Below are positions 11,287-46,294 of a DNA stretch of 64,000 nt, in pieces. A program made the translations under genes and the position numbers. Numbering within the stretch: the first letter of the stretch is position 1; each line of letters begins with the position of its first letter. The notes under the pieces were generated by a model, which was not told where the DNA came from, ran no database searches, and saw only the letters and a list, made by a program, of their open reading frames with translations. The DNA comes from a virus, in IMG/VR virus record IMGVR_UViG_3300042308_000168, positions 62,001-126,000 of that record. One strand, written 5' to 3'.

Positions 11287-14200
11287 TGACCAACACAGTA
11301 ATTGCTCTAAAGAAATCATCTATTCCAGGATCTTCACCGGCTGATCTAGCTAATGGTGAAATTGCTATTAACTATGCCGATGGTCTTATTTACTATAAGG
11401 ACATTAACGGCAACATTCAGTCTATCTCTGGTGGTGAAGGTGGTTTCAACTTCGGAACCATCAATGCAGCCGGCACACTGGTAATTGCAGATATCCCAAA
11501 TGATATTCTTACCTTTAATCAAGGACAGAATATTGAGATTACTAGTTCGGCACTCACAGATGCAATTACAATCTCTGCAAATCTGACACCTGCTATTGAT
11601 CTTGCTTCGGCAGCATTTGATAGCACTAACACCACTCTTACTTTAACACAAGCAGCATTTGATCGTGCTAATCTTTCAAATGATGTTCTCTATGTGGCGG
11701 CCGCCTATGATAATGCCAATGCTGCATTCGATAAAGCGAATGCTGCAAATGTTCTGGCGTATGATACAGGAATAGGCGCTAATGCTTACTCCGGATATCT
11801 TTTTGAATTAGCAAATAATAGAATTACAGATACGGGTGCTGGTGCTAATGCTTATGTCATTACAGTTGCCGCAGCCGGTAATAACTATACGATTGCTGTT
11901 GGTGTTGCAGGTAATAATTACACCGATGCCGTTGGTGCTGCTGGTAATGCATATACTGTTGCTGTTGGTGTTGCAGGTAATAACTGGGCTAACACAATCG
12001 GCGCAAGATCATATACATGGTCCAATACAGTTGGATCATCTGCCAATGCTTATGCATTATCAGTAGCTACACAAGTCGGACAAGCCGGTAACGCTTATGC
12101 TTTATCAACAGCTACACAAGTCGGACAAGCCGGTAACGCTTATGCTTTATCAACAGCTACATCGGTTGGATCATCAGGTAACTCTTATACTGTAGCAGTT
12201 GGAACAGCAGGAAACACATGGGCTAATACAGTCGGGGCCGCCGGTAATAACTATACCATTTCTGTTGGTGCTGCTGGTAATGCTTACTCAGTTGTAATCG
12301 GATCAGCCGGTAATGCTTATACTGTAGCAGTTGGTACAGCCGGTAATGCTTATTCAACAGCCGTTGGTGCATCATCAAATGCATGGGCCAATACAATCAG
12401 TGCAAGTTCAAATGCTTGGGCTAATACAGTAGGTTCGTCAGGTAATACTTACATGCTTGCCGTTAATGCCGCAGGTAATGCTTATACTGTTGCAGTTGGT
12501 GCAGCCGGTAATGCTTACACAGTAGCAGTTGGAGCCTCAGGTAACTCATACACTGTAGCAGTTGGAGCAGCCGCAAATGCTTATGCATTATCAGTCGCCA
12601 CAACAGTAGGTTCATCCGGTAATACATATATGCTTGCCGTTAATGCATCAGGTAATGCTTATACAGTAGCAGTCGGAGCTTCAAGTAATGCTTGGGCTAA
12701 TACGGTAGGTTCGTCAGGTAATACATACATGCTTGCTGTTAATGCAGCCGGCAACAACTATACTATTGCAACTGGTGCGGCAGCTAATGCTTGGGCCAAT
12801 ACAATCAGTGCAAGTTCAAATGCTTGGGCTAACATTGTTGGTACCTCAGGTAACTCATATACAGTAGCAGTTGGTACAGCCGGTAATGCTTATACTGTAT
12901 CCGTAGGAGCAGTAACAAACGCTTGGTCAAATACTGTTGGTACAGCCGGTAACTCATATACAGTAGCAGTTGGTGCAGCCGGTAACTCATATACAGTAGC
13001 AGTTGGTGCAGCCGCAAATGCATGGGCCAACACAATTGGCGCAAGATCAAATACTTGGGCTAATACAGTCGGCACCTCAGGTAATAACTATACCATTTCT
13101 GTCGGTACTGCTGGTAACAACTACACCATTACTGTTGGTGCATCAAGCAATGCTTGGGCCAATTCAGTAAACATATATTCAGATTCAACCTACTTTAAGA
13201 AATCTGGTGGCACAATTACCGGTGACTTACAAGTTACAGGCAATCTAATAATATCTGGTAATGCAACAACTATCACAACAGATAGTCTTTCTGTTGAAGA
13301 TTCTCTAATTTTTCTAGCAACAAATAACATTTCTGATATTGTTGATATTGGTTTTGTTGGACACTATAGCAACGGAACATCTAATGTTCATACTGGATTG
13401 TATAGAGACCATGCTTCCAAAGAATATTTCCTATTCAGTGGATTGTCTGGAGAACCATCATTAGTAAACGATATTGTTCCGTATGCAAACAATATGGTCA
13501 ATGCCGTTCTGAACTCTGATATCAGAACAAGCAACCTGATCCTTGGTGGTGCTAATGCTATCATAACTATTCGGAACAATGCTGTCGGTGCCAATGGATG
13601 GGCAAACACAGTTGGTACATCAGGTAATAATTATACAGTATCAGTTGGAGCGGCATCCAATGCTTGGTCCAATTCAGTTGGTACATCAGGCAACTCCTAT
13701 ACATTATCCGTTGGTGCATCTGCTAATGCTTGGTCGAATACTGTCGGAACATCTGCCAACGCTTGGGCAAATACAATCGGAGCAAGATCCAATACATGGT
13801 CCAATACAGTTGGAACATCAGGAAATTCATACACAGTAGCCGTTGGTGCTGCTGGCAACAACTACACCATTACTGTTGGTGCATCTGCTAATGCTTGGTC
13901 AAATACCAAACTATCAAACAATAATGTCGTTCTAGCAGGTAACATTGGTGTTCTTGGATATGTTTCGACTACTCGTGGTGTGTATGATGACGGTGTAGCT
14001 GGTACTGTTAGAATAACTAACCCTGGCGGTGGTGCATTCTCGAACAACGCTGCGACTGCTACTGGTGCTATTAAAATTAAAATGCCTGTCGCTGCAAATA
14101 ACAATAACACAATGTTGCGTGTTACTGTAAAAATTTTCAACTATGTAACAGGAACATCAACAACATTACAATTTGGTGGTTATAACTATAGTGTTGTTGG

Positions 14201-39043: not shown

Positions 39044-39568
39044 ATGACAACCAAATCAGTTCTGACAACTACACCAGAGAATACATCTATTCTTCAACCT
39101 ACGAAGTTTACTTTCTTTATTCCTGATAAGCCATTTCTAAGATACTTTTGTCAGACAGTCACAATTCCTTCTGTGTCATTAACTCCTATTGCTGTTCCTA
39201 CTCCTTTCGTTGATACATATAGACACGGCAGTAAAATGACATTTGAGCCATTAGTGATTACCGCATTGATGGACGAAGATTTGCGTGTATGGCATGAAAC
39301 ATACAAGTGGATGAATAGTCTAGGACAATCTTCTAATCTTGATAAGTATCCAAGAAGATCATTGAAAGATACTAATCCTCTTTACTTTGATGGATATCTA
39401 ACAATCAATACAAACTCTAACAATCCTAATATTCGTATCAAATTCTTGAACTGTCACCCCACAGATGTTGGCGGTATCAACTTTGACACCAAGCAAGATG
39501 CTGATAACATTCCTACCGCAGACTTCACATTCCGTTACGATGTGTTTGAAATTGAACGCTTGACATAA
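39044..39568 (+). CDS. Tail-tube-fold protein (gp3-like tail completion or gp19 paralogue)
   Basis: A 174-residue protein. Pattern K-F-T-F-F-I-P near the N-terminus, V-T-I-P-S-V-S-L, P-T-P-F-V-D-T-Y-R-H-G and L-M-D-E-D-L-R-V-W-H-E is typical of tube-fold proteins that initiate or terminate the tail. In T4-like cyanophages a gp3-type protein of about this length lies between gp23 and uvsY, the position seen here. gp3 ends the tail tube and stabilises the sheath. A gp19 paralogue is an alternative. Confidence 0.65.
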   Translation: MTTKSVLTTTPENTSILQPTKFTFFIPDKPFLRYFCQTVTIPSVSLTPIAVPTPFVDTYRHGSKMTFEPLVITALMDEDLRVWHETYKWMNSLGQSSNLDKYPRRSLKDTNPLYFDGYLTINTNSNNPNIRIKFLNCHPTDVGGINFDTKQDADNIPTADFTFRYDVFEIERLT

Positions 39569-39588
39569 CCGTTTATTTCCACTATAAT
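39560..39588 (+). promoter_or_regulatory. Consensus sigma70-type promoter before uvsY
   Basis: TTGACA (39560-39565), 17-bp spacer, TATAAT (39583-39588). Both hexamers are perfect. It overlaps the upstream stop codon and would start an early transcript for uvsY and uvsW. Confidence 0.88.
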
Positions 39589-39619: not shown

Positions 39620-40072
39620 GTGAATCTTAAACCACCAGTAGCTATTGAAGATTTGATGAAGGAATGGTCAGAGGATACTAAACTCGATTCTTCCGCTATT
39701 GATTTGGAACTCTTGAAGATTTCCAATCTACACGGTAAGTATCTTAACATTATGTCCTATCATCGTCATCTTGTCCGTAAGATAGATACGGACTTTAAAA
39801 ACATGAAAGGCTTGCGTGAAGATTACTATGCTGGTCATCTTACACAGGAAGAATGTGATAAGCGTGGTTGGGAGTATATGCAGCATGTTCATTCTAACCC
39901 CAAGATTGCTAGACTACTCGAAACTGATCCCGAACTAAATAAACTGTTGCTTAAGAAAATAGCACACGAAGAAATTGTCTCCTATTGCGAGTTTGTTCTT
40001 AAATCTCTAAACAATCGCACATGGGACCTAAAGACATACACAGACTATAGAAAGCACTTTGACGGTAGATAA
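39620..40072 (+). CDS. uvsY: Recombination mediator UvsY
   Basis: A 150-residue protein. The segment L-K-I-S-N-L-H-G-K-Y-L-N and L-R-E-D-Y-Y-A-G-H-L is the UvsY signature. It loads the UvsX recombinase onto gp32-covered single-stranded DNA. GTG start with GGAGG six bases upstream. Its stop overlaps the uvsW ATG by one base, a two-gene recombination unit as in T4-like cyanophages. Confidence 0.88.
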   Translation: MNLKPPVAIEDLMKEWSEDTKLDSSAIDLELLKISNLHGKYLNIMSYHRHLVRKIDTDFKNMKGLREDYYAGHLTQEECDKRGWEYMQHVHSNPKIARLLETDPELNKLLLKKIAHEEIVSYCEFVLKSLNNRTWDLKTYTDYRKHFDGR

Positions 40073-41547
40073 TGGAACACTTGATCATTAGGAATTTGAA
40101 TGAGTCTTATATTCATGTCACCTGTAGTGAAGGTGTAGCATGGGAACTCAGAGACGCATTCTCATTCCGTCCTCCCGGGTTTCAATTTGTCCCTTCTTAC
40201 AAAATGAAACTCTGGGATGGATATCTTCGCCTCTTTGATGCCAATAAGCGTATCATTCTTCGTGGTCTTGCTCCTCAGGTAATGGAGTGGATACGCAAGA
40301 GAGGTTATACCTATGAGTATGAGGATGAACAGTATGGCACATCATTTTCAGTGGAAGAAGCAAATGAGTTTATTGAAAAACTCAACCCCAAGCATCCTCC
40401 TAGAGACTATCAGCTTAACTCTTTCGTTCACGCAATACGCTCTAAGCGTCGTCTTGTGCTGTCTCCTACTGGTTCAGGCAAGTCTTTGCTTCTTTACTTG
40501 GTCTCTATGTATTTGCTTACCAAAGGGAAGAGAGGTCTTATCATCGTTCCTAGGTCGGCGCTTGTAGAACAGTTATTCTCCGACTTTCAAGACTATTCTG
40601 TAAAGAATGGTAAGGATATGAATAAGTATTGTTGGAGAGTATATTCAGGTCGTGATAAAGAGGCAGAGCATCCTATCATCATATCTACCTGGCAGTCACT
40701 ACAAAGATTACCTAAAGAATACTTTCAGAAGTTTGATTATGTAATCTGTGACGAAGTTCATCAAGCACAAGCAAAGGCACTATCTGATATCATTTCTAAG
40801 TGTACCAATGCTGCGTATCGTATCGGTGTTACTGGTACTCTATCTGGTGCTAAGACGCATGAATGGGTGCTTACCGGTTTGTTTGGTGAAATCTATAAAG
40901 CAACTACATCTAAAGAACTGATGGATAAGGAACAGCTTGCTAAACTAACCATCAAGTGCCTGTTGCTAAAATACTCTGACGAAGAATGTCAGTATATGAA
41001 GACTGCCGACTATCAGGCAGAGATTGACTATATTGTATCTAATAAGGAGCGAAACAAGTTCATTGTAAATCTTGCCCTCTCCTTAGAGGGCAATACTCTA
41101 CTGCTATTTAACTATGTGGAGAAGCATGGAGCCGTTTTATACGACATGCTAAATAAGCGTGTAAAAGAAGGCAGAAAAGTATTTTATATACATGGAGGAA
41201 CTGAGGTTGAAGACCGAGAAGAAATTCGAAGGATCGTCGAGAACGAGCGTAATGCTATTATTGTTGGGTCCGTTGGTGTTTTGTCTACTGGTACTAACAT
41301 CGTGGCCTTGGATAACGTCATATTTGCATCTCCTTCCAAGTCCAAGATCCGTAACTTACAATCAATCGGTAGAGGGCTTCGGGTTAGTGACAAGAAAAAA
41401 TCCGCCACTCTCTATGACATTGCCGATGACTTTAAGTGGAAAGCAAGAGAGAACTTTACCCTTAAGCATTTCTTTGAAAGACTCAAAGTCTATGGTGAAG
41501 AAGGGTTCGAGTTCAAAATCTACAAAATAAACATGAAGGATAGATGA
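40072..41547 (+). CDS. uvsW: DNA/RNA helicase UvsW (SF2)
   Basis: A 491-residue SF2 helicase. An N-terminal domain (1-110) is followed by R-D-Y-Q (Q-motif), Walker A S-P-T-G-S-G-K-S (131-138), I-C-D-E-V-H (DEVH box, about 223-228), V-T-G-T-L motif III and Q-S-I-G-R-G-L-R motif VI. T4 UvsW unwinds R-loops and reverses forks, switching replication from origin to recombination-dependent. Overlaps uvsY and the next gene. Confidence 0.92.
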   Translation: MEHLIIRNLNESYIHVTCSEGVAWELRDAFSFRPPGFQFVPSYKMKLWDGYLRLFDANKRIILRGLAPQVMEWIRKRGYTYEYEDEQYGTSFSVEEANEFIEKLNPKHPPRDYQLNSFVHAIRSKRRLVLSPTGSGKSLLLYLVSMYLLTKGKRGLIIVPRSALVEQLFSDFQDYSVKNGKDMNKYCWRVYSGRDKEAEHPIIISTWQSLQRLPKEYFQKFDYVICDEVHQAQAKALSDIISKCTNAAYRIGVTGTLSGAKTHEWVLTGLFGEIYKATTSKELMDKEQLAKLTIKCLLLKYSDEECQYMKTADYQAEIDYIVSNKERNKFIVNLALSLEGNTLLLFNYVEKHGAVLYDMLNKRVKEGRKVFYIHGGTEVEDREEIRRIVENERNAIIVGSVGVLSTGTNIVALDNVIFASPSKSKIRNLQSIGRGLRVSDKKKSATLYDIADDFKWKARENFTLKHFFERLKVYGEEGFEFKIYKINMKDR

Positions 41548-41957
41548 TGGATGATTACAGTGAATATCCTAGAGCAAAGTTTATTCGTCTCGATAATGGG
41601 GATGATTTAATAGCGGAAGTAGTAGAGGTTGGTGATGATGATAATCTAATGTATCATCTTTATCATCCTCTTAAAGTTGTTTATATACCTTCTGAGAAAA
41701 CTGGCTTCTATAGTATTGCTTTTATGCCATGGGTCTTTCCTAGAATGGTTGAAACGCAAGAATTTACTTTACAATCCGAAAAAATTATGATAATAACAGA
41801 TGTATCAGAAAAAACTAATGCGTCCTATTGGGAAAGTGTTAGTGAGTACCTAAAGTATAATGATCCTGCCAATGACGAACTAAGTCTTACAGAAGAACAG
41901 GAAGATAGTATAGCCGAGGCTCTTGAAGCATTCGCACAGAAAAGGATATATCACTAA
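41544..41957 (+). CDS. Conserved-type phage protein, possible Sm-like beta-barrel
   Basis: A 137-residue acidic protein. The first ~75 residues alternate beta strands (A-K-F-I-R-L-D-N-G-D-D-L-I-A-E-V, Y-H-L-Y-H-P-L-K-V-V-Y-I), reminiscent of Sm-like small barrels found next to uvsW in T4-like cyanophages. The C-terminus is a helical acidic tail. ATGATG start overlaps the uvsW stop. Nucleic-acid binding is only a possibility; no named family assigned. Confidence 0.5.
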   Translation: MMDDYSEYPRAKFIRLDNGDDLIAEVVEVGDDDNLMYHLYHPLKVVYIPSEKTGFYSIAFMPWVFPRMVETQEFTLQSEKIMIITDVSEKTNASYWESVSEYLKYNDPANDELSLTEEQEDSIAEALEAFAQKRIYH

Positions 41958-42262
41958 TGGCAACGACCACCACAAAAGAAACTAATCCATATCTCACATT
42001 TGACGATGCGGACCTAACCGATGATTTCGGCTTTTCTTTCGGTAACGAAGACGACATTATCGCAGACGCCATCGCACCGACACAAGACGAAGTGGCCGAT
42101 CTTAAAAAGAGATTAGAAGCTATTAGGAAGATTTATATGCCTTTGCTACAGAACCTAGCAAAGAACTCCGATCAGCCTATCATCAAGTGGCCTAACAGAG
42201 GTCCTATCCTTGAGAAGCAGATAGCGAAACTTATTACACTTACCGAACCAGGGTTCAAGTAA
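41957..42262 (+). CDS. Small conserved-style protein of the uvsW operon
   Basis: A 101-residue protein whose ATG overlaps the previous stop by one base. It has an acidic N-terminal half (D-D-A-D-L-T-D-D-F-G-F-S-F-G-N-E-D-D) and a helical C-terminal half (D-L-K-K-R-L-E-A-I-R-K-I, then P-N-R-G-P-I-L-E-K-Q-I). Similar small acidic/helical genes follow uvsW in T4-like phages. Function unknown; replication/recombination context. Confidence 0.5.
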   Translation: MATTTTKETNPYLTFDDADLTDDFGFSFGNEDDIIADAIAPTQDEVADLKKRLEAIRKIYMPLLQNLAKNSDQPIIKWPNRGPILEKQIAKLITLTEPGFK

Positions 42263-42266
42263 GGTG

Positions 42267-42284
42267 AACTTGCTAACGCAAGTT
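42267..42284. other. Short hairpin in gap between uvsW operon and gp55
   Basis: Perfect 7-bp stem AACTTGC / GCAAGTT with loop TAAC. No good T-run on either strand. It would lie within the RNA made from the leftward promoter at 42346-42374. Confidence 0.4.
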
Positions 42285-42345
42285 TGTCTCGCTTCGCTCG
42301 ACGGTTGCTCTTGGTTAAGGTTTAGGTGGTGGTTTCTTAAAGACC

Positions 42346-42374
42346 ATTATACCCTAAGTTGAAAATGTTGTCAA
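42346..42374 (-). promoter_or_regulatory. Perfect sigma70-type promoter on the minus strand
   Basis: Read leftwards: TTGACA (42374-42369), 17-bp spacer, TATAAT (42351-42346). Both hexamers are exact. No minus-strand gene lies downstream; the product would be an RNA starting near 42339 and running antisense to the 101-aa and 137-aa genes. Confidence 0.75.
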
Positions 42375-42401
42375 GCCCAAAAATGAAAGAAAGTGAATAA
42401 A

Positions 42402-42980
42402 ATGGCAAAAAAAGTTAAGCGTCATTATGTAGATAATAAGAAGTTTTTGGAAGAGATTGTAGAATACAAGAAACAGTGTGCCTATGCAGAACAGCATGGA
42501 CTAACAAAGCCTGTTATCTCAAACTACATTGGTAAGTGTATTAAGGACATTGCGGAGCATCTTAGCACCAAGCCTTTGTTCATGAACTACTCATATCGTG
42601 ATGAAATGATATCGGATGCAATTGAAAACTGTTTCATGTATTTCGATAACTTCAATCCCGAGAAGTCAGAGAACCCCTTTGCATACTTCACACAGATTAG
42701 TTACTACGCCTTTCAGAGAAGGAAGAACAAAGAAAAGAAGAACAAATATATAATGTATAAGAGGTTTCAAGAAAGTGTTCTGCATACTAATGATGCCTCA
42801 CTTATGATTGATGCCGATGGAAATCACTTGATTTCTTCAAACATCTATGATAACATTAATGACTTCATACGAGATTTTGAGGAAAGAGAACTTCTAAAGA
42901 AACTCGAAAGAAAGAAGGCCAAGGAAGGCTTAGAAAAGTTTGTTGAAGGAGAGAATGATGACGGAAGAGAATCAGTATGA
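42402..42980 (+). CDS. 55: Late-transcription sigma factor gp55
   Basis: A 192-residue homologue of T4 gp55. The central region (F-D-N-F-N-P-E-K-S-E-N-P-F-A-Y-F-T-Q-I and Y-A-F-Q-R-R-K-N-K-E) is the conserved sigma-region-2-like core. It redirects host RNA polymerase to TATAAATA-type late promoters together with the sliding clamp gp45, which is also encoded here. ATG 42402 is chosen over GTG 42393. The 3' end overlaps the next gene by 23 bases. Confidence 0.9.
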   Translation: MAKKVKRHYVDNKKFLEEIVEYKKQCAYAEQHGLTKPVISNYIGKCIKDIAEHLSTKPLFMNYSYRDEMISDAIENCFMYFDNFNPEKSENPFAYFTQISYYAFQRRKNKEKKNKYIMYKRFQESVLHTNDASLMIDADGNHLISSNIYDNINDFIRDFEERELLKKLERKKAKEGLEKFVEGENDDGRESV

Positions 42981-44509: not shown

Positions 44510-46294
44510 ATGATTAAAAAGAATTTACCATGGATTATACTTATTGGACTGACCATCGGTCTAGTTGCCTTTATGTTTGATAATCCTAAACAGAAAGCAA
44601 TCAGTGAAATCGGCTACAGTGACTTTATTGCACAAGTCGATGCTGGAAGAGTTCATGATGTAACAATTATAGGAACCGAAGTTGTCGGACATTATATGGA
44701 TAACCGACAGTTCACCACCACAGTCACCGGAGTTAGTAATCTACTCCCTCGCCTTGAACAGCACAAAGTAAATATCACAGTTAAAGAAGAACAAGGTAAT
44801 TTTTGGTTTGGTCTATTGATCAATCTACTTCCTGTTTTCCTATTCTTCGCACTATGGATTTTTCTATCACGAGGTCGAGCCGGAGGTCCGGGCGGTGTTA
44901 TGGGACTTGGTAAGTCTAAGGCCAAACTTCTTACTGAAAATCAGACTAAGGTAACATTCGATGATGTTGCTGGTGTTGATCATGCCAAAGAAGACTTGCA
45001 AGAGGTTGTAGAGTTTCTACAATCACCAGAAAAGTTTCATAGACTTGGTGGAAAGATTCCAAAGGGTGTTCTACTCGTCGGACCTCCAGGAACAGGTAAG
45101 ACACTGTTAGCAAGAGCGGTTGCTGGTGAAGCAAATGTTCCTTTCTTCTCTATCTCTGGTTCCGACTTCGTTGAAATGTTCGTCGGCGTTGGTGCTAGTC
45201 GTGTTAGAGATATGTTTGAACAAGCAAAGAAGAATGCACCATGCATTATCTTCATTGACGAAATCGATGCTGTTGGTCGTTCAAGAGCAAACGGTATATC
45301 AGGTAATGATGAGCGTGATCAAACACTAAACGCTATGCTAGTTGAAATGGATGGCTTTGAAACTAATGAAGGCATTATCATTGTCGCTGCTACAAACCGT
45401 GCAGATGTTCTAGATAAGGCTCTATTGCGCCCTGGTCGTTTTGATCGTCAGATTCAAGTTCCTAACCCAGACTTTATTGGTCGTGAAAAGATCCTTAAGG
45501 TTCATACTCGCAAGGTTCCAATTGGTTCTGATGTTGATCTAAAGCGAGTTGCAAAGGGAACACCTGGCTTCTCTGGTGCTGACCTTGCTAATCTAGTCAA
45601 TGAAGCGGCTTTGCTTGCTGCTAGAAGATCAAAGCGTATCGTTACTAGTATGGAGTTTGAAGATGCTCGTGATAAGATCCTTATGGGTCCTGAGCGTCGT
45701 TCACTAATGATGACTGACGAAGAAAAGAAGATGACTGCATATCACGAAGCTGGTCATGCTCTAGTCTCTCTTAACATGCCTGGTTCTGTTCCAATTCACA
45801 AAGCAACAATCATTCCTCGTGGTCGTGCTTTGGGTATGGTTCAGTCCCTACCAGAGCGAGATAAAATCTCCATGCACTATGATGAAATGATCGCCAATCT
45901 AGCAATGGCTATGGGTGGTCGTGTAGCAGAAGAAATGATCTTTGGTGATGACAAGGTATCTTCTGGTGCATCTGGTGACATTCAGATGGCAACTCAACTT
46001 GCTCGTTCTATGGTCACCGAGTATGGTTTCTCTCCTGTTCTAGGTCGTATGGCATACTCAACACCAGGTGCAGATATGTTCCATGCACCAAAGATTGCCG
46101 AAGAAACTCAGAAGGTAGTCGATATGGAAATCAAGCGGCTTGTTGAAGAAGGATATCTTACTGCTAAGAAAATCCTTACAGAGAAAAGAAAAGACCTTGA
46201 CAAACTTGCTAATGGTCTGTTAGAATACGAAACTCTATCGGGTGAAGAAATCTCCGATCTACTAGAGGGTAAGATTCCAACAAGAGAGTTTTGA
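44510..46294 (+). CDS. ftsH: Complete FtsH membrane-anchored AAA+ zinc protease
   Basis: A 594-residue, apparently intact FtsH. Two transmembrane helices (about 8-22 and 101-119) flank a periplasmic domain. The AAA domain has Walker A G-P-P-G-T-G-K-T (191-198), pore loop F224-V-G, Walker B I-I-F-I-D-E (246-251) and arginine fingers in R-P-G-R-F-D-R. The M41 protease has H412-E-A-G-H416 and third ligand D490 (S-G-D-I). It degrades membrane and regulatory proteins in bacteria. Position between gp47 and gp46 is unusual for T4-like phages. A role in membrane-protein or host-factor turnover is inferred. Confidence 0.95.
46197..46226 (+). promoter_or_regulatory. Possible promoter inside ftsH, before gp46
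   Basis: TTGACA (46197-46202), 18-bp spacer, TAGAAT (46221-46226). Eleven of twelve hexamer bases match, but it is intragenic. May give gp46 its own early transcript. Confidence 0.4.

Follow-up and report, generated by a model that had tools for sequence, protein, structure and literature searches.

What could a perfect leftward promoter serve in a region where every recognised gene reads rightward? The question is raised by the genome of a T4-like virus (174,499 bp, 59% A+T), whose closest isolates by major capsid protein (63-65%) are Pelagibacter phage Mosig, Stenotrophomonas phage DLP_6 and Methylophilales phage Melnitz. A 64,000-nucleotide stretch of this record (hereafter the window, to which coordinates refer) carries uvsY, uvsW, orf137, orf101, gp55 and gp47, all on the plus strand and with no minus-strand gene nearby. 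The uvsW helicase gene (40072-41547, identified by profile matches) is followed by orf137 (41544-41957; DUF6561-like by a Pfam match that falls under the Pfam cut-off, and 'methylamine utilization' in PHROG), by orf101 (41957-42262), an open reading frame with no match in Pfam and PHROG searches and more than 300 relatives in IMG/VR, and by the late sigma factor gene gp55 (42402-42980; phrog_234, E 1.4e-53). A full-length FtsH-like ATP-dependent metalloprotease (AAA plus peptidase M41) is encoded downstream of gp47, at 44510-46294. A tRNA/tmRNA search of the window returned none.

A conserved leftward promoter upstream of gp55

The orf101 stop codon (42262) and the gp55 ATG (42402) are separated by 139 bp, the largest gap between 39 and 46 kb. 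Within it the minus strand reads, from 42374 to 42346, TTGACA-ACATTTTCAACTTAGGG-TATAAT: an exact -35 element (42369-42374) and an exact -10 element (42346-42351), matching the consensus at 12 of 12 positions with a 17-bp spacer. The original prediction was thus accurate in describing a perfect leftward promoter, in placing it in the only larger gap, and in assigning all recognised genes of the region to the plus strand. In the whole record, exact promoter matches number ten on the forward strand and one, the present site, on the reverse strand; a reversed-pattern control gave no match, and base composition predicts about 0.04 exact matches per strand at 17-bp spacing. Since a single leftward match has a chance of about 4% per such genome, the promoter alone is suggestive, not convincing. 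Five other minus-strand sites match at 11/12, each inside a plus-strand gene.

Conservation lifts the promoter far above chance. Relatives of the locus were gathered by similarity to the orf101 protein, not by motif. In all 70 unselected loci, with 59-100% orf101 identity, a leftward promoter and hairpins lie past the orf101 stop codon; after most duplicates had been removed, the promoter and the core of the first hairpin (H1, see below) were present in 45/45 loci. Both hexamers are invariant in a 30-sequence alignment. The module is not universal, being absent from orf101 relatives at 51-55% identity. These data establish the leftward promoter as genuine, with conservation in dozens of T4-like viruses from freshwater. 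In many relatives (L097, L107, L117 and others) an extra gene (MFxFFHRTPEIxLDCFT...) is found between the leftward promoter and gp55.

Rightward transcription of the region includes a perfect forward promoter upstream of uvsY (39560-39588, 12/12), convergent with the leftward one and scoring 11/12 and 10/12 in two relatives. Upstream of uvsW, no forward sigma70-like promoter above 9/12 was found in seven phages, nor was any found in the 160 nt upstream of gp55, here (around 42330-42401) or in one relative (G001). A second relative (G002) and cyanophages have a forward promoter of 11/12 or 12/12 upstream of gp55. Expression of the late sigma factor in the present phage may rest on read-through.

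A wider survey covered 57 distinct gp55-upstream regions outside the family of orf101 relatives. Of these, 24 had leftward promoters of at least 11/12, where 0.5-0.6 would be expected; in 14 the leftward promoter was perfect, compared to an expectation of 0-0.33. The carriers include DLP_6, the pelagiphage HTVC008M and cyanophages with a TACAAT or TAGAAT -10 element, so that the promoter recurs at the gp55 junction in marine cyanophage and pelagiphage isolates. These distant phages have the promoter only, without the hairpins, suggesting that the promoter is older than the hairpins. Leftward promoters of the distant T4-like phages (loci L012-L087 and L293-L301, upstream of gp55) often contain two TTGACA boxes spaced 11 bp apart (TTGACW-N5-TTGACA-N6-TATAAA), with GGCTATG next. 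Such an arrangement resembles a regulated type of promoter whose start-site sequence is conserved.

A short inverted repeat, TCT-TTA-AGA, spans the predicted start site (about 42339) at 42335-42343 of the minus strand. It is weak here. Across the family, inverted repeats just past the -10 element have a mean stem of 3.14, compared to 2.46 in shuffles (the maximum of 200 shuffles being 2.91), and those at the start sites of the distant phages a mean stem of 3.39, compared to 2.54. The sequence of the repeat differs in each phage, and it may be an operator. Palindromes within the promoter spacers were not significantly enriched (3 found, 1.03 expected).

An unpaired leader and two covarying hairpins

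Downstream of the predicted start, composition and predicted folding define an unpaired, C/A-rich and G-poor leader on the minus strand (42303-42339; ACCACCACC...AACCAAGAGCAACC). Family leaders contain 31.5% C and 10.9% G, compared to 20.4% C and 18.2% G for the minus strand locally, extend for 25-55 nt from the start to H1, and frequently include ACCACC and ACCAAA-like stretches. The leader is followed by two hairpins with covarying stems. The AACTTGC/GCAAGTT hairpin of the original prediction is present at 42267-42273/42278-42284 and is referred to as H2 (AACTTGC-GTTA-GCAAGTT, minus strand, 42267-42284). The other hairpin, H1 (GTC-GA-GC-GAA-GC-GA-GAC, minus strand, 42302-42286), which has tandem G-A mismatches and a GNA loop, was recognised in the present analysis, as were the C-rich leader and the conservation of the whole. 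In the family, H1 and H2 are 0-4 bases apart, mostly 0.

H1 consists of a constant core within a short stem that varies from phage to phage (GTC/GAC, CAT/ATG, GTG/CAC, GAT/ATC, GTT/AAC). Among 36 distinct relatives, stem pairs 1, 2 and 3 are Watson-Crick in 36, 35 and 26, respectively, with up to three pair types each; pairs 4-6 are down to shuffle level in the 36 distinct regions. With its flanking stem, the H1 motif occurs once in the present genome and is found in neither Syn9 nor S-PM2. The core alone is also found in unrelated viral contigs and for this reason was not used to define the family. H2 is a perfect stem of 5-9 pairs whose sequence varies among relatives; its pairs 1-6 are Watson-Crick in 34-36 of the 36 relatives, with up to four types. 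The minus-strand loop of H2 is GAA in most members, GTTA here and GTAA, GGTA or GTCA elsewhere, always of the form G...A in these family members. None of the 36 sequences has a G-U pair among H2 pairs 1-6, despite free variation of the stems. An RNA helix would not usually look like this, and a DNA hairpin fits the pattern equally well.

The covariation score of the two hairpins on the alignment is 0.373, compared to 0.111 in shuffles, none of 500 shuffles reaching the observed value; structures slid along the alignment scored at most 0.060. In the present genome the minus strand gives the better fold (-13.5 kcal/mol, compared to -10.2 for the plus strand), as it does in one of two relatives tested, the order being slightly reversed in the other. 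On this evidence the functional strand is the minus strand, be it as RNA or as single-stranded DNA.

No minus-strand reading frame is common to the family. Readable lengths range from 0 to 112 aa, two members have none, and the frames share no sequence other than the complement of orf101. A hidden minus-strand peptide was thus ruled out, there being no shared ORF. Neither strand has a U-tract or intrinsic terminator at H1/H2, and no intrinsic terminator was found nearby downstream of the promoter in the window, which is unusual for a small-RNA gene. Pairing of the leader with gene start regions in three phages gave 2, 3 and 0 matches, below the shuffle means.

Further copies of the module

A covariance model of the module finds one strong site in the present genome (74 bits), the next match scoring 16 bits. 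In G002 it finds two, one at gp55 and another at 14,008-14,107 (E 4e-14). The second copy contains the -10 element, the leader, H1 and H2 and sits between genes for proteins of 129 and 149 aa; in the present genome these two genes overlap and their junction is empty. Another T4-like group (G006-G009) has more weakly matching relatives of the module beside gp55 and close to the gene for the 129-aa protein, in some cases accompanied by a promoter. In this group, loci L399, L397, L398 and L400 (G007, G008) contain several two-hairpin elements on the minus strand, not all of them with a promoter. In one two-hairpin element of the second T4-like group the H2 loop is reversed, with TTC instead of GAA on the minus strand, indicating that loop orientation is not absolute there. 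Copies in cellular genomes were also sought. The pattern occurred twelve times, in unrelated groups such as Bacteroidota and Firmicutes, and these matches were taken as chance; the eleven that were scored either stayed at or below 25 bits or did not appear in the list, compared to 74 bits for the phage site.

The occurrence of a second whole copy at another junction argues that the conserved part is the leader plus two-hairpin module and not a pairing to particular genes. This bears on the proposal that the RNA would be antisense to the two small genes after uvsW. The geometry is as described. The relatives, however, do not share one antisense target, and conserved pairing to these genes finds no support, the second copy of the module lying elsewhere. 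The segment from the start to H2 stops short of the orf101 stop codon, so that overlap with orf101 requires run-on transcription; its 3' end would then be crossed in antisense by the predicted leftward RNA.

Candidate functions and known systems

Taken together, a promoter conserved in all 45 relatives, a secondary structure with covariation support and the lack of a conserved open reading frame make it probable that the element is a non-coding RNA gene, driven by host sigma70 and encoding a predicted early regulatory RNA made of a leader and two hairpins. The leftward non-coding RNA of the original prediction gains strong support from the conserved promoter and the covarying minus-strand hairpins, and a regulatory role for it is plausible. 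On this reading of the sequence, host sigma70 RNA polymerase would start near 42339 early in infection and head leftward. The predicted product is an untranslated RNA with a C-rich unpaired leader of about 37 nt followed by the abutting hairpins H1 and H2. As there is no terminator, transcription would run on in antisense into orf101, orf137 and uvsW, and the stable RNA would probably comprise the leader and hairpins, trimmed back to H2, for a length of about 75-90 nt. The module may bind a protein or pair through its leader. Leftward polymerases, for their part, would impede those that read on from the early uvsY promoter into uvsW and gp55, up to the time when gp55 replaces sigma70 transcription. 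Holding back uvsW early would make sense, since UvsW of T4 is a late protein, with the task of unwinding R-loops at origins (PMC3016281).

It seems conceivable, but quite improbable, that leftward transcription as such is the whole function. An early promoter placed where a late module ends would then stop early read-through, either through collision or through antisense pairing, with no role for the sequence of the RNA. The leftward promoter upstream of gp55 is indeed far more widespread than the hairpins, and it converges with the early uvsY promoter. However, in the present clade the leader and hairpins are conserved and are duplicated together with the promoter. Such conservation and duplication as a unit speak for a regulatory RNA that depends on the module itself. 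The possibility that the hairpins act instead in the plus-strand mRNA of the uvsW operon, as a 3' stabiliser or terminator, with the leftward promoter a coincidence, appears highly improbable. Although H1/H2 lie just past a plus-strand stop codon at both genomic positions, the plus strand has no U-tract, the G...A loops and tandem G-A mismatches are on the minus strand, in most pairs tested the better fold is that of the minus strand (one relative being reversed), and the promoter is kept throughout the 45 loci.

The main alternative is a replication origin of the T4 oriF/oriG type. In T4, these are elements of about 100 bp in which a promoter transcript forms an R-loop that UvsW unwinds (PMC3016281). 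At the present locus, the leftward early transcript would stay hybridised and prime leading-strand synthesis, the displaced minus DNA strand would fold into H1/H2, holding the bubble open or loading helicase/primase, and the R-loop would be cleared later by UvsW, the product of a neighbouring gene. Several features fit such an origin. The promoter lies within an element of about 100 bp, as in oriF/oriG, and the strand displaced would be the one that carries H1/H2; the lack of G-U in H2 pairs 1-6 is more DNA-like than RNA-like; and the GCGAAGC motif, which forms an unusually stable hairpin in DNA, would suit the displaced strand. The element is also present in one to three copies per genome, next to uvsW and uvsY, and its transcript would be untranslated and lack a terminator. 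On the other hand, T4 origins have an A+T-rich unwinding element downstream, whereas here the leader (42303-42339) is about half A+T, compared to 59% for the genome, and H1/H2 are rich in G+C. In addition, G-poor RNA does not favour R-loops, and GC- and TA-skew minima, computed at fourfold sites in seven phages, are not consistently at the site: the TA-skew minimum falls within 5 kb of it in two of the seven, but not in the others. On balance, an R-loop origin is considered rather unlikely. A more specific version, also unlikely, would be a transportable R-loop origin whose displaced minus strand folds as two GAA-loop mini-hairpins and which arose from a promoter-only ancestor at the gp55-uvsW junction in the wider group. 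If true, it would amount to a single-stranded-DNA-hairpin origin in T4-like phages.

The element does not correspond to a catalogued RNA. Searches with Rfam 15 at the gathering threshold, over the whole window and 12 related loci, gave no family match, and a relaxed search gave only a chance match (E 0.95); nor was the element described in the literature searched, which did not include the Syn9 transcriptome. An undescribed covarying module with its own early-type promoter sits between uvsW, the gene of the R-loop helicase, and gp55, the late sigma gene. This is the point where, in T4-like phages, origin replication gives way to recombination replication, and early to late transcription. If expressed, the module would provide this switch with a regulator, or an origin, that is simple and open to testing, in a group of phages that is very abundant.

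Among known systems, the HK022 put antitermination RNA also consists of two adjacent stem-loops right after an early phage promoter. It serves long early operons, whereas no minus-strand gene lies downstream of the present element; the resemblance is one of layout. With oriF (uvsY) and oriG (34) of T4 the element shares small size, a promoter, an untranslated transcript (here predicted) and a link to uvsY/UvsW, the R-loop being known for T4; it differs in having a perfect early-type promoter, a C-rich leader and G+C-rich hairpins in place of middle-mode promoters and an A+T-rich unwinding element. The structured or antisense RNAs known from T4-like cyanophages lie at other places. CfrI of cyanophage S-PM2, an antisense RNA of about 225 nt, overlaps psbA and a homing-endonuclease gene (PMC2984593). 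It is a non-coding RNA of a T4-like phage and antisense to plus-strand genes, as the product of the present element would also be; unlike the RNA predicted here from the uvsW-gp55 junction, with its two conserved hairpins, CfrI has been demonstrated. The structured RNAs manA, wcaG and PhotoRC-II were also found in T4-like cyanophages, by comparative genomics (PMC2864571). manA and wcaG belong to 5' UTRs and PhotoRC-II is found in association with psbA-type genes, whereas the present element has a promoter of its own, opposing all genes around it.
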